From: Actinobacteria bacterium 13_1_40CM_66_12
GTDB taxonomy: Bacteria; Chloroflexota; Dormibacteria; Dormibacterales; Dormibacteraceae
Assembly (NCBI GenBank): GCA_001917895.1
Contig: MNEW01000066.1
Location: 1-16,476 of the forward strand
Reading direction: 5' to 3'
Length of the DNA stretch: 16,476 nucleotides
Both the position numbers and the translations under genes were made by a program. Positions 8,993 through 13,526 of the stretch are shown piece by piece; within the stretch, counting starts at the first letter, position 1; each line of letters opens with the position of its first letter. The notes beneath the pieces are model-generated. The model saw nothing but the letters and a program-made list of their open reading frames with translations, was not told where the DNA came from and did not search any database.

Positions 8993-9793
8993 ATGCGCGG
9001 GCCAAAAACAGCGCTGCTCGTCTGCTTCGGCGGGGCCGCCGCGGCGGTGCTGGGCCTGGCATGGGATGTGTCTATCCATAGCGCGTATCCCAGCCTCGCT
9101 CAACACGAGACTCCGCTCGACCCGCTCAGCCCCGCGCACGACCTGATCGCGGCCGGCATCCTGGTCGCCGCGATTGGAGCAGCGTGGGCGATCGGCGTCG
9201 GCGTCAGTCGCCGGCTGGGCGCCTTGGCTCTGCTGCCGATCGTGGCTTCGATCGCGTGGGTTGGCACAACCGCTCTGGACGCGCCGGCGCTCGAGACCGG
9301 AACCACCGATCAGCAGGCGGCGGCCAACCAGTTGTGGCAAAAGACGGAGGAGGCGTCGATCCGGTACAGATCGCTCTCGGCTGCGCGTGCCGACGGCTAC
9401 CTTGCCTTCAACCCGATCGGCGATCCCTTGATCCACTACGTGAACCCCGCCTACATGCAGGACGGAAGGATTCTCGACCCCGAGCACGTGGAGTCGCTGG
9501 TCTACGAGAACACGCTGCGCGGTCCGGTGCTGCTGGCGGCCATGTATTCGCTCGAGGATCCAAACGCGGCGCCCCCTGACGTGGCCGGGCAGCTGACGCC
9601 CTGGCACCGTCACGACGATCTGTGTTTCACGCCCGGAGGCGAGGTCGTCGGGGCGGCACCTGCTTGCCCGCCCGGTTCAGCGACCTACTACACGCCGTGG
9701 ATGCTGCATGTGTGGCTGGTGCCAAACCGCTACGGGCGCTTCGCGTCCGACCTGGATCCGTGGAACCAGCTGGCTATCGAGCTGTTCGGATGA
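8993..9793 (+). CDS. 3-TM membrane protein with His/Cys-containing C-terminal domain, unknown function
   Basis: 266 residues. Three hydrophobic segments (about 7-24, 49-71, 75-94) are followed by a soluble domain of about 170 residues that is probably outside the membrane. That domain contains YLAFNPIGDPLIHYVN, LLAAMYSLEDPNA, TPWHRHDDLCFTPGG (His205, His207, Cys211), ACPPGS (Cys225), and TPWMLHVWLVPN (His239). The conserved-looking His and Cys suggest a metal site, possibly cupin-like, but no family is recognised and this is inference. The start is an ATG without a Shine-Dalgarno, 7 bases after TATCCT. The stop TGA overlaps the methyltransferase ATG (ATGA), so the two proteins probably work in one process. 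Confidence 0.75.
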   Translation: MRGPKTALLVCFGGAAAAVLGLAWDVSIHSAYPSLAQHETPLDPLSPAHDLIAAGILVAAIGAAWAIGVGVSRRLGALALLPIVASIAWVGTTALDAPALETGTTDQQAAANQLWQKTEEASIRYRSLSAARADGYLAFNPIGDPLIHYVNPAYMQDGRILDPEHVESLVYENTLRGPVLLAAMYSLEDPNAAPPDVAGQLTPWHRHDDLCFTPGGEVVGAAPACPPGSATYYTPWMLHVWLVPNRYGRFASDLDPWNQLAIELFG

Positions 9794-10423: not shown

Positions 10424-10453
10424 TTGCACGCCGAACGCCTGTTCGTGTAAGAT
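10424..10453 (+). promoter_or_regulatory. SOS-type promoter of the 121-aa unknown gene
   Basis: TTGCAC (10424-10429) and TAAGAT (10448-10453) are 18 bases apart, and the whole spacer is occupied by a LexA box. The ATG of the downstream gene begins 10 bases after the -10, so the transcript would have a very short leader. The arrangement (box between -35 and -10) is the same as at the LysM gene next to lexA. Confidence 0.65.
10432..10445. promoter_or_regulatory. LexA (SOS) box upstream of unknown gene
   Basis: CGAAC-GCCT-GTTCG: perfect 5+5 inverted repeat with a 4-base centre, matching the Gram-positive/actinobacterial LexA consensus CGAAC-N4-GTTCG. lexA itself, 1.2 kb away, has an identical-type box. 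Position between -35 and -10 is ideal for repression. Confidence 0.75.
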
Positions 10454-10463
10454 TATTGTGAAC

Positions 10464-10829
10464 ATGCGTACGCTCCAGACCCAGGTCAAGCTCCGCCGGC
10501 TCATCCGATCCAGCTCGGAGGCGTTCTCGCGTCTGCGCTGGCAGCCGAGCGAACGCCGGATGGCGGATGCGATCGTCGACCGCCTCCTGGGCCTGGCGGC
10601 CGAGGTTCGGGAGTCCTGGGCCGAGGATGCGCTTTCGGGACGCCCTGGAGAGGCTCTGAGGGCCTTCGTGGCCGAATCGCTCCGTACCGCCGAGCTGGCG
10701 ATCACCGGCGCCGCCCAGGAAGGCTCTGATCTCGAGCTGCTGCGCCAGGACTTCGAGCGGGCCGCGCTGCCGCTGGAGGTCTTTCTACGCGGCCTGGACG
10801 CCGAGCCGGCCCTGCAGCGCTCCGCTTAG
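10464..10829 (+). CDS. Putative SOS-regulated helical protein, 121 aa, unknown function
   Basis: I do not recognise a family. The protein looks entirely alpha-helical and soluble, with no signal or membrane segment. It has a basic N-terminus (MRTLQTQVKLRRLIRSSSEA), a middle helix pair (RMADAIVDRLLGLAAEVRES), and an acidic-leaning C-terminal half (LRTAELAITGAAQEGSDLEL). ATG 10464 is chosen; GTG 10458 is in frame two codons earlier. There is no Shine-Dalgarno, consistent with a leaderless or nearly leaderless mRNA from the TAAGAT -10. A perfect LexA box sits in the promoter, so expression should rise after DNA damage. A role in repair, division control or a damage checkpoint is possible but unproven. 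The upstream methyltransferase ends 47 bases earlier and is probably a separate unit, though read-through would be possible. Confidence 0.72.
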   Translation: MRTLQTQVKLRRLIRSSSEAFSRLRWQPSERRMADAIVDRLLGLAAEVRESWAEDALSGRPGEALRAFVAESLRTAELAITGAAQEGSDLELLRQDFERAALPLEVFLRGLDAEPALQRSA

Positions 10830-10846: not shown

Positions 10847-10861
10847 ATTCCGCACGTTTGG
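10847..10861 (+). repeat. Direct repeat, copy 1, with 16-base palindrome
   Basis: ATTCCGCACGTTTGG, identical to the copy at 10889. Its 3' part begins a perfect 16-base palindrome, CGTTTGGATCCAAACG (10855-10870). Confidence 0.8.
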
Positions 10862-10888
10862 ATCCAAACGCGCCAATCCAGGGCCCGC

Positions 10889-10903
10889 ATTCCGCACGTT
10901 TGG
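10889..10903 (+). repeat. Direct repeat, copy 2, with imperfect palindrome
   Basis: ATTCCGCACGTTTGG, starting exactly 42 bases after copy 1, close to four helical turns. It runs into an imperfect palindrome CGTTTGGCGCAAAACG (10897-10912), so both copies sit at the same place relative to a dyad. Could be paired protein-binding sites or pieces of a dispersed repeat. Confidence 0.8.
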
Positions 10904-11251: not shown

Positions 11252-11560
11252 CTAGGCCGGCAGGCGCAGAGTCTCCCCCACATTGATCACCGGGCTCGAC
11301 AGGCCGTTCAGCTGCTCGATCTCGTCTACCCGCATCCGCGTGTCGTCCGCGGGGTAACGAGCGGCCGCAATCGTCCACAGCGTGTCGCCCGGCTGGACGA
11401 CCATCGTCGCCGCCGCCTCGCCGCCCTGGGCGATCCGGCTCAGAGCCAGCATCACCGCCAGCGCCGCCACCAAGACCAGGGCCCAGCGGTAAACGTGCCG
11501 CAGGGCCCGGTCGGAACGGAGTGGGGTACGTGGTTTGGTGGCGTAGCCGGCGGCGTACAT
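11252..11560 (-). CDS. YneA-like LysM protein (SOS cell-division suppressor candidate)
   Basis: 102 residues: a cytoplasmic N-terminus of about 25 residues, one membrane helix (WALVLVAALAVMLALSRIA), then a single LysM domain (VVQPGDTLWTIAAARY to INVGETLRLPA) that should bind peptidoglycan outside the membrane. This architecture and the position divergent from lexA match Bacillus YneA and the mycobacterial Rv2719c arrangement, SOS-induced proteins that hold back septation or act on the wall. Function here is inferred from that parallel. The promoter is strong (TTGACA, 17 bases, TAATCT) with a perfect LexA box in the spacer. The ATG lies 9 bases after the -10, so the leader is very short and no Shine-Dalgarno is seen. 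Confidence 0.82.
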   Translation of the reverse strand: MYAAGYATKPRTPLRSDRALRHVYRWALVLVAALAVMLALSRIAQGGEAAATMVVQPGDTLWTIAAARYPADDTRMRVDEIEQLNGLSSPVINVGETLRLPA

Positions 11561-11569
11561 GTGTTCGAG

Positions 11570-11598
11570 AGATTACCGAACGGGCGTTCGGATGTCAA
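11570..11598 (-). promoter_or_regulatory. SOS-type promoter of the LysM gene
   Basis: Read on the minus strand: TTGACA (11598-11593), a perfect -35, 17-base spacer, then TAATCT (11575-11570). A LexA box fills the spacer. This is the best consensus promoter in the window. Confidence 0.8.
11577..11590. promoter_or_regulatory. LexA (SOS) box 1, lexA/LysM intergenic
   Basis: CGAAC-GGGC-GTTCG, perfect 5+5 dyad. It lies between -35 and -10 of the LysM gene promoter and upstream of the lexA promoter. Confidence 0.88.
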
Positions 11599-11603
11599 GG
11601 CAT

Positions 11604-11617
11604 CGAACAAAGGTTTG
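11604..11617. promoter_or_regulatory. LexA (SOS) box 2, at lexA -35
   Basis: CGAAC-AAAG-GTTTG, one mismatch from the dyad consensus. It overlaps the first bases of the lexA -35 and lies 27 bases centre to centre from box 1, which supports autorepression of lexA at somewhat weaker affinity. Confidence 0.7.
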
Positions 11618-11694: not shown

Positions 11695-12309
11695 TTGACC
11701 GAACAGCTGACCGAACGCCAGAACAAGATCCTCGACTACATCCGCTACGTCACGAAGTCCCGCAACTACCCGCCCAGCGTCCGCGAGATCGGCGAGGCGG
11801 TCGGCCTGAGCTCGAGCTCGACCGTTCACAACCACCTCAACCAGCTCGAGCGGCGCGGACTGATCAAGCGCGACCCCAGCAAGTCCCGCACCGTCCAGCT
11901 CGTTCAAGACGTCGAAGTCGACAAGCAGCGGCGCAACGCCGTTTCGGTCCCCGTCATCGGCAACGTGGCCGCCGGCGCTCCCATCCTGGCCGAGCAGAAC
12001 ATCGAAGACCACTTCCTGCTCTCGCCCGAGATGGCCCAGGAGGGCAATTTCCTGCTCCGAGTCCGGGGCGAAAGCATGATCAACGCCGGCATCCTCGACG
12101 GCGACATGGTCCTGGTGAGGCCTCAGCAGGATGCGCCCAACGGCTCCATCGTCGTCGCCCTGGTCGACGGAGACGCGACCGTCAAGCGATTCGAGCGCGG
12201 CAACGGCCACGTCAAGCTGATCGCCGAAAATCCGGCCTACGAGCCGATCGTGACCAGCAACGTGAGCCTGGTCGGCGTTGTCCGCGGTGTGATCAGACTC
12301 TTTCGCTGA
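11695..12309 (+). CDS. lexA: LexA repressor, SOS master regulator
   Basis: 204 residues. The N-terminal winged helix-turn-helix (TERQNKILDYIRYVTKSRNY, then PPSVREIGEAVGLSSSSTVH) binds SOS boxes. The C-terminal S24-type self-cleaving domain has the Ala93-Gly94 cleavage site (NVAAGAP), nucleophile Ser127 (RGESMIN) and general-base Lys164 (DATVKRF), all intact, so RecA-stimulated autocleavage should work. The start is TTG 11695 with GGGAG 7 bases before it. Divergent from the YneA-like gene across a region with two LexA boxes. Its 3' end overlaps the convergent hflX frame by 17 bases. Confidence 0.97.
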   Translation: MTEQLTERQNKILDYIRYVTKSRNYPPSVREIGEAVGLSSSSTVHNHLNQLERRGLIKRDPSKSRTVQLVQDVEVDKQRRNAVSVPVIGNVAAGAPILAEQNIEDHFLLSPEMAQEGNFLLRVRGESMINAGILDGDMVLVRPQQDAPNGSIVVALVDGDATVKRFERGNGHVKLIAENPAYEPIVTSNVSLVGVVRGVIRLFR

Positions 12310-13526
12310 CCTCGGCGTAAGACTCGAAGCGGCGCGCTGCGTGACGGGGCACCCATCCCCAGGCCCGCGTTCCGCCTTCGACGTATTCCGTGCGGTCGAC
12401 GCCGCCGATTCGCCGCAGCTCCGCGAGCACTCCCTCCTGTCCATATGGGACCAGGATCTCCACCGTGACGACCTCGCCTCGACTGGCGGCGTCGATGGCT
12501 TCGAGCAGAGTCGGGAATCCAGACCTGCTCAGCGCTGAGATGGCGACCGCCCCGGGGTAACGCGCGCTGATCGCCCCAACCGCGCGGCGGCGAGCGGCCG
12601 GGCCGAGCAGATCGACCTTGTTCAACGCCACCACACGCGGCTTGGTGGCGGCGTCCAGGTCACGCAGCACCTCCTCCACAGTCTCCCTCTTCGAGCGTGG
12701 CCCGGAAGGCGGCGACCAGGTCGGTAGGCAGCTTCTGGATGAAACCGACGGTGTCGGTGAGCAGAAGCCCTCGCCCTGTCGGAAGGTCGAGGCGTCGGGT
12801 CGTGGGGTCGAGAGTCGCGAAGAGCCGATGCTCTGCCTGCACACGCGAGCCGGTCAGCGCATTGAGCAGCGTCGATTTGCCCGCGTTGGTGTAGCCGACG
12901 ATCGCCGCCGTCTCCAGCTCGGCTCGCCGGCGGCCGGTACGCTGCTGGTGGCGCTGCGAACGCACCTGCTCGATCTCACGCTCGAGGTCGCGCATGCGCT
13001 TGCGAATGCGCCGGCGCTCGACCTCGATTTGCTGCTCGCCGAAACCACCGCGAGCCCCCACCCCACCTCGACGGCCGCCTACCTGGCGGTCGTAGGCATA
13101 GGCGCCGATCAACCGCGGCAGAAGATGGTGCAGGCGCGCCGCCTCCACTTGAAGCCGGCCCTCGTGCGTACGCGCGTGCTGGGCGAAGATCTCGAGGATC
13201 ACCTCGGTGCGGTCGAGCACCCGCGTCTTCAGCTCGAGTTCCAGGTTTCGCTGCTGCCGCGGGCTGAGGTCGTCGTTGCAGATGACCAGGTCGAACGCAC
13301 CTTCGAGCTTCAGGTCGCGAAGCTCCTCGACCTTGCCCATGCCGATGAAGTGAGCGGGATCGACTGCGGCGCGCCGCTGGACGTCAGTGCCGACGACCTC
13401 GGCCCCGGCTGTGCGCGTGAGGTCGGCCAGCTCCGCCATCTGGTCGCGGACCAGCTCTGGGGTCGATCCCGGCAGCAGCAGCCCGACCAGGTACGCCCTC
13501 TCTCGGGGCGGCTTCGTCGTGATCAG
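12293..13526 (-). pseudogene. hflX: HflX-type ribosome-associated GTPase, frame broken by internal deletion
   Basis: HflX binds the 50S subunit and rescues or splits stalled ribosomes. The first part (frame of 13526 to about 12687) carries the HflX N-domain (GMGKVEEL, NDDLSPRQQRNLE, HARTHEGRLQVE), G1 GYTNAGKST, and G3 DTVGF, up to AFRATLEE. The rest (about 12682 to 12293) lies in another frame and resumes at TVEEVLRDLD with G4 ALNKVDLL, G5-like ISALS and the C-domain. At the junction (12683-12686) only 4 bases separate parts that in HflX are some 20-25 residues apart (the ADLLLHVVDAS-type strand), so about 65-70 bases are missing and the frame shifts. The 5' end also lacks ATG, GTG or TTG: homology (RERAYLVGLLLPGS) starts upstream of ATG 13439, and the best-placed start is CTG 13526, overlapping the dapL stop (CTGA). 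Real decay or an assembly fault are both possible. Confidence 0.85.

Follow-up and report, generated by a model that had tools for sequence, protein, structure and literature searches.

What kind of protein do soil bacteria of the Dormibacteria produce from a small gene that belongs to no named family and stands behind a perfect LexA operator, close to lexA itself? We analysed a stretch of 16,476 nucleotides (hereafter the window) in which such an open reading frame, here called X, runs on the forward strand from an ATG at position 10464 to a stop codon ending at 10829 (10464..10829, 121 codons). Its putative promoter consists of a -35 hexamer TTGCAC (10424..10429, forward strand) and a -10 hexamer TAAGAT (10448..10453, forward strand). 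A sequence-only reading of this DNA had claimed that the 18-base spacer between them is filled by a perfect CGAAC-GCCT-GTTCG dyad, and we confirm this dyad at 10432..10445 on the forward strand (CGAACGCCTGTTCG), 18 bases before the start codon. It fits the consensus CGAACNNNNGTTCG, which we take to be that of the Gram-positive (Cheo-type) LexA box. Two sites in the window match CGAACNNNNGTTCG perfectly, one at 10432 and the other at 11577, whereas 200 shuffles gave 0.01 such sites on average. The second lies in the divergent region between a LysM gene and lexA, 1,145 bp from the X box; the same reading had noted it about 1.1 kb away, and it is indeed the only other perfect site. The hexamers in the window are weak (TTGCAC has three mismatches to TTGACA and TAAGAT two to TATAAT), and better ones are found in some relatives, e.g. 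TATAAT in L011 and TTGACA in L060-L063. The start codon is only 10 nt past the -10 hexamer, so the mRNA of X is probably nearly leaderless.

Judged by its conservation, X is a real gene, because it has 727 homologues at E ≤ 0.001 in a single-sequence search (930 with a profile) and is under purifying selection, with dN/dS between 0.13 and 0.42 across 15 pairs of members. Among the matches listed, i.e. the best 120 of each search, most are nameless and the named ones are called hypothetical protein; the sole other label among them is NTP pyrophosphatase, given by JGI to one protein (P0146). MazG-type proteins carry an acidic metal motif. We rejected an all-alpha NTP pyrophosphatase as the identity of X: P0146 itself matches no Pfam family, and no acidic residue is found among the invariant columns of X. 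No family was matched by X in Pfam or NCBIfam. When 15 members were searched, Pfam returned six families, each for a single member and at best with E 0.0032 (MLTR_LBD), and PHROGs returned nine, again for one member each (best E 3.9e-4). The best matches among PDB sequences were designed proteins (E 0.41). A viral origin was set aside, as no relative of X was found in viral_contigs, and so was a function as a defence gene, PADLOC having reported nothing for two of three members and a weak match to BrxC (E 0.0066) for the third.

A two-pattern scan of genome_contigs gave 27 X loci, all in metagenome-assembled genomes whose titles name Chloroflexi or Candidatus Dormi(i)bacterota/Dormibacteraeota. 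Within the class to which one of these genomes belongs, X was found in 36 of the 110 genomes, and lexA was over the cut-off in 95 of them. At NCBI, Candidatus Dormibacteria is placed as a class within Candidatus Dormiibacterota, and we infer that it is the class searched. A sample of 400 genomes of the phylum contained 24 matches to X, 21 of them in genomes already counted in the class. We did not accept G130, G186 and G194 as carrying relatives of X, since their matches are weak and partial (E 5e-4 to 8e-4) and lie inside frames of more than 500 residues. The window itself probably belongs to this group, given that its X protein is 80-86% identical to those of L001-L004 and that gene order is shared. 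X appears to be an SOS gene characteristic of the Dormibacteria. One locus (L025, 561-1015) is peculiar: the C-terminus of an upstream TetR-type gene (recognised by eye) is fused in frame to residues 19-121 of X, so that the box, the promoter, residues 1-18 and most of helix 1 are missing. A deletion may account for this fusion, or else an artefact of assembly.

We then compared 35 promoters, each taken from a different locus (the window, L001-L024, L056-L063, L152 and L153). The L025 fusion, which has no promoter, and L026 and L027, which are truncated at contig ends, were left out before this count, and L044-L055 and L104-L117 were treated as repeat views of genomes already counted. Spacer lengths derived from an automatic choice of hexamers, which picked other letters for the window, were left out of the counts. 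The spacer box is perfect in 32 of the 35 promoters, has one mismatch in one (L010) and three mismatches in two (L152 and L153). The last two lack a clear box; L152 is the most divergent member of the family and L153 is cut by a contig end. The sequence-only reading had proposed an undescribed protein under a LexA box beside lexA, and had named orthologues lacking the box, or a frame not conserved as protein, as evidence against it. The proposal holds for 33 of the 35 promoters, and does not extend to L152, L153 or the fusion in L025. In the genomes of L152 and L153 (G040 and G447), where the spacer box of X is unrecognisable, we made a further observation: the lexA/LysM region of G040 (L154) has no perfect box, and its best one differs by one mismatch. 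The LexA motif may thus have shifted in this branch.

Neighbouring genes served as a control. We sought boxes between -80 and +25 of the start codon in the same loci, some of which overlap, using for HflX the broken first part of the hflX gene of the window as the query. Thirty of the 31 X rows have a perfect box there, as do 21 of the 28 rows of the LysM gene, all 28 of the latter having a box within one mismatch. Over the same interval, there were none in the 168 rows of eight neighbour families (PyrF 0/12, O3883 0/11, ACAD 0/22, MTase 0/9, Grx 0/35, HflX 0/27, AspAT 0/26 and MiaA 0/26), nor in those of NadE (0/4) and LexA (0/33). Allowing one mismatch added 1 of 22 rows for ACAD and 8 of 33 for LexA. 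At the scale of whole genomes, the numbers of perfect boxes (13, 15, 10 and 8) are not clearly above those of a reversed-pattern control (9, 8, 4 and 9, respectively). Hence, the box by itself is weak evidence, and the argument is built on its position and conservation instead of on the motif alone. Such counts near the control are what one would expect if the box were a chance dyad before a meaningless frame. Yet only 0.01 perfect sites are expected per window, and the 727 homologues, the conserved box and dN/dS values below 0.5 refute this explanation, to which we attach practically no probability. The operator of X overlaps the promoter and is conserved across orthologues, as in a LexA regulon. 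Because the box is conserved, X is almost certainly under the control of LexA, and it is very probably produced upon DNA damage.

The promoter of X contains what may be a further operator. An imperfect dyad (TGAACATGCGTACG, 10459..10472, forward strand), with two mismatches to the box in the window, spans the start codon, and in most members this region reads CGAAC-ATGC-GTACG or a close form. Two mismatches or fewer were counted in 25 of the 35 promoters, three in 4, and four to six in L020 and L059-L063; the dyad lies 27-29 bp from the spacer box in 29 of the 35. Among 33 genes, the second codon is CGT in 26 of the 29 cases where it encodes arginine, yet CGT makes up only 28 of the 506 arginine codons that these genes have past codon 3. 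A comparable dyad is found at the start of the LysM gene (CGAACACATGTACG, 11554..11567, reverse strand), with the form CGAAC-NNAT-GTACG or nearly so, set in a reading register different from that of X. Paired boxes also occur in genomes devoid of X: of 22 lexA loci read there, 11 contain a pair of perfect boxes at a distance of 28-30 bp, three have one and eight have none within the available stretch. In one locus (L148) the start of the LysM gene, as aligned, falls within the second box.

We considered that the conserved CGAACATGCGTACG at the start of X might serve translation rather than LexA. This would fit less well with the different register of the dyad in the LysM gene, with the paired perfect boxes in half of the X-less lexA loci (11 of 22), and with L152, where codon 2 is AGT (serine) and GTACG is still kept. 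These three observations favour an operator over a role in translation. The start-codon dyad is thus a probable second, weaker LexA operator, lying over a nearly leaderless message. If so, a design with paired candidate operators is used at two unrelated genes, X and LysM.

The lexA module lies downstream of X. The LysM gene (11252..11560, reverse strand; Pfam LysM, E 8e-12) encodes a YneA/ChiZ-like protein with one hydrophobic segment, seen by eye. The motif scan and the promoter comparison both place a perfect LexA box in the spacer of its promoter (11577..11590, reverse strand). Between this gene and lexA the motif scan found a box with one mismatch (CGAACAAAGGTTTG, 11604..11617, forward strand), which is probably the operator of lexA. 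The latter follows at 11695..12309 on the forward strand (LexA_DNA_bind, E 3.4e-24; Peptidase_S24, E 5.5e-34). The LysM gene, divergent from lexA, is likely the SOS division inhibitor of the YneA/ChiZ type in these bacteria. X and lexA share a contig in 30 genomes. In every one of these the two genes have the same orientation and X lies on the upstream side, at a distance of 0.8-7.2 kb (within 2.4 kb in 28 of them). In the remaining six of the 36 genomes with X, the two genes are on different contigs (five) or lexA was not found (one), i.e. lexA is present in 35 of 36. The gene order ACAD - (MTase in some) - X - Grx - LysM/lexA - HflX - AspAT - MiaA is largely common to the X loci examined and varies in distant ones, e.g. 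L159 and L161. The linkage to the lexA module downstream, pointed out from the sequence of the window, is therefore general among same-contig genomes. The methyltransferase upstream, also proposed as a linked gene, adjoins only some copies of X and is an inconstant neighbour. Grx, which follows X in the window, is oriented towards it, and X is therefore probably transcribed as a single-gene unit.

Other features of the window deserve mention. The frame of hflX (12293-13439) is broken by either a sequencing error or a real frameshift: its stop comes after 259 codons, whereas six relatives have 402-419. A frame encoding 266 residues, without a Pfam family (8993-9793) overlaps the start of the methyltransferase gene and is conserved at 76-78% in L004 and L018. 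Directly after X, ATTCCGCACGTTTGG occurs twice (10847-10903), and its first copy overlaps the palindrome CGTTTGGATCCAAACG; this stretch is possibly a terminator or a repeat element.

We also asked which other genes carry the box, reading 42 of the 46 perfect boxes of four genomes; nine box-linked proteins were searched with Pfam and the others were recognised by eye. Perfect boxes precede X (4), recA (4), an ImuA-like RecA homologue (3), uvrB (2), a DEAD-box helicase (2), lexA/LysM (2), C-5 cytosine methylases (2) and DUF222-type genes. Not every one of these is boxed in each of the four genomes, and many perfect boxes lie inside genes or far from any start. The boxed recA was found in all four (one confirmed by Pfam, the others by eye), and together with the presence of lexA in nearly all X genomes it is what a LexA regulon would contain. 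The box before the helicase is at position 2001 in L072 and L079; Pfam gave a weak, below-cut-off match to an HRQ1-type winged helix (L072 only), and we presume that this is perhaps an MrfA-like repair helicase. The boxed RecA-like, ImuA-type gene of L066, L077 and L091 (Pfam RecA, L066 only) suggests a damage-induced mutasome. In two genomes (L069 and L080) a LexA-type box lies close before C-5 cytosine methylase genes. Together, these observations provide a sketch, at the level of sequence, of the SOS regulon of the Dormibacteria.

The product of X is predicted to be a soluble four-helix bundle. The AlphaFold model built with 118 sequences has helices at residues 4-26, 28-59, 63-82 and 90-120 (pLDDT 89.7, pTM 0.84) and a less certain tail; that of a distant member has four helices and two short C-terminal ones (pLDDT 86.8). 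No transmembrane segment is evident by eye. Foldseek searches of the PDB and of viral models gave no match at E ≤ 0.001, and fold searches retrieved only generic bundles (designed bundles, FAT, FliS and PsbQ). The claim of an undescribed, conserved helical protein is thus borne out by the homologues, the selection, the absence of a family and the model. Eleven columns are invariant (M1, L4, T6, Q7, R12, R15, R23, L41, W52, L104 and R109), and conservation is strongest mainly in helix 1, over its first half (Q7, R12, R15), at W52, and from the last part of helix 4 into the C-terminal tail (L104, R109, -[RK][ST]A). By the order of the helices, as opposed to coordinates, most of the invariant residues sit near the same end of the bundle, R23 and L41 being outside it; mean conservation is 0.70 at this end and 0.61 elsewhere, a modest difference. 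The final alanine is present in all of the 118 aligned proteins, which were chosen from listed matches and loci. The C-terminus reads [RK][ST]A in 111 of them and RPA, LAA or KIA in the other seven; in the window it is Arg-Ser-Ala, encoded at 10818..10826 on the forward strand.

How does X compare with known SOS proteins? Division inhibitors of the YneA/ChiZ/SosA type, ChiZ among them, are linked to lexA and, like X, are encoded by small LexA-boxed genes in its neighbourhood. The LysM gene next to X looks exactly of this type. In contrast with YneA (PMC13396833), X lacks a LysM domain by Pfam, has no transmembrane segment evident by eye and is modelled as a soluble bundle. LysM was also absent from the weak Pfam matches of the 15 members. 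The generic bundles retrieved by the fold searches count among the closest known systems as well, none reaching E ≤ 0.001 in Foldseek. RecX is a small helical protein linked to the SOS response. Its gene shares a contig with X in some genomes, and no RecX match was found for X among Pfam families. We dropped the idea that X replaces RecX, since separate RecX genes are present in 34 of the 36 genomes with X. SulA has an alpha/beta fold, whereas X is predicted to be all-helical and has no Pfam match; none of the six families weakly matched by the 15 members is SulA. The likeness is of another kind: the SulA of E. coli, according to PMC6051672, is a soluble cytoplasmic SOS product that is cleared by proteolysis. 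The argument that X has no membrane segment and is for this reason not of the SulA type fails, since SulA itself is described there as cytoplasmic.

Three roles can be envisaged for a damage-induced protein of this kind, and we rank a checkpoint effector first, a repair accessory second and a modulator of the SOS response third. As an accessory of DNA repair or translesion synthesis, X would use its conserved basic end (R11, R12, R15 and R109) and W52 as a binding surface for nucleic acid or for an enzyme of repair, and its induction would raise repair capacity instead of causing arrest. The invariant basic residues and tryptophan are compatible with this, as are the other boxed genes of the same genomes, which include recA, uvrB, the ImuA-like gene and the helicase. 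Yet neither sequence nor Foldseek searches found a significant match to a nucleic-acid-binding family. Furthermore, the start-codon dyad is present at the LysM gene and none was seen by eye at the recA and uvrB sites, so the layout of X is more like that of the LysM gene. We regard a repair accessory as rather doubtful.

RecX and DinI are modulators of the SOS response. By binding LexA or the RecA filament, X could tune the switch as they and gp7 of phage GIL01 do, which would explain its fixed place on the same strand beside lexA in all 30 same-contig genomes. Small proteins that modulate LexA do exist, gp7 being an example (PMC4551915). This role is nevertheless the least expected of the three and we find it quite unlikely: 34 of the 36 genomes with X already have RecX, which is over the cut-off in 80 of the 110 genomes of the class, and the larger block around X is syntenic, so that closeness to lexA may be inherited gene order. 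We tentatively favour a checkpoint-type effector over a repair factor or an SOS modulator, short of calling it probable. The paired operators common to X and to the YneA-like gene suggest, by analogy with division inhibitors, that stray expression of X is costly. The conserved C-terminal alanine suggests removal by proteolysis, as for SulA, which is cleared by Lon, and YneA, which is cleared by two proteases (both according to PMC6051672). That the C-terminus of X is a degron is a possibility, itself somewhat doubtful.

The checkpoint effector that we prefer would work as follows. LexA would repress X from the perfect operator in the spacer between the -35 and -10 hexamers, helped in most members by a weaker one that covers the start codon. 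The RecA-triggered cleavage of LexA, established for the SOS system in general, would then release X. The protein might dock through its basic end onto a partner in the replication or division machinery, and impose a checkpoint for a limited time, alongside the YneA-like LysM inhibitor in the membrane. Proteolysis at the invariant C-terminal alanine would subsequently remove it. As a whole, this explanation, i.e. a soluble SOS checkpoint effector, tightly repressed by LexA, acting beside the LysM protein and removed via its C-terminal alanine, comes close to being an even bet. It is unlikely, if conceivable, that X also opens a new class of soluble, SOS-controlled checkpoint effectors. Such an effector would be a cytosolic four-helix bundle working in parallel to a YneA-like membrane inhibitor, the genes of both being silenced by paired LexA operators, one within the promoter spacer and the other across the start codon of a leaderless message, and X would be cleared via a C-terminal [RK][ST]A degron.

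A search of titles and the starts of abstracts, covering few subscription papers and with the spelling Dormiibacterota outside it, found nothing on X or on SOS and LexA in the Dormibacteria, and in the literature searched the response of these soil bacteria to DNA damage via SOS seems to have received no study. To this response X adds a conserved gene without a known family. If it is a checkpoint effector, it would represent a new bacterial way of pausing after DNA damage.
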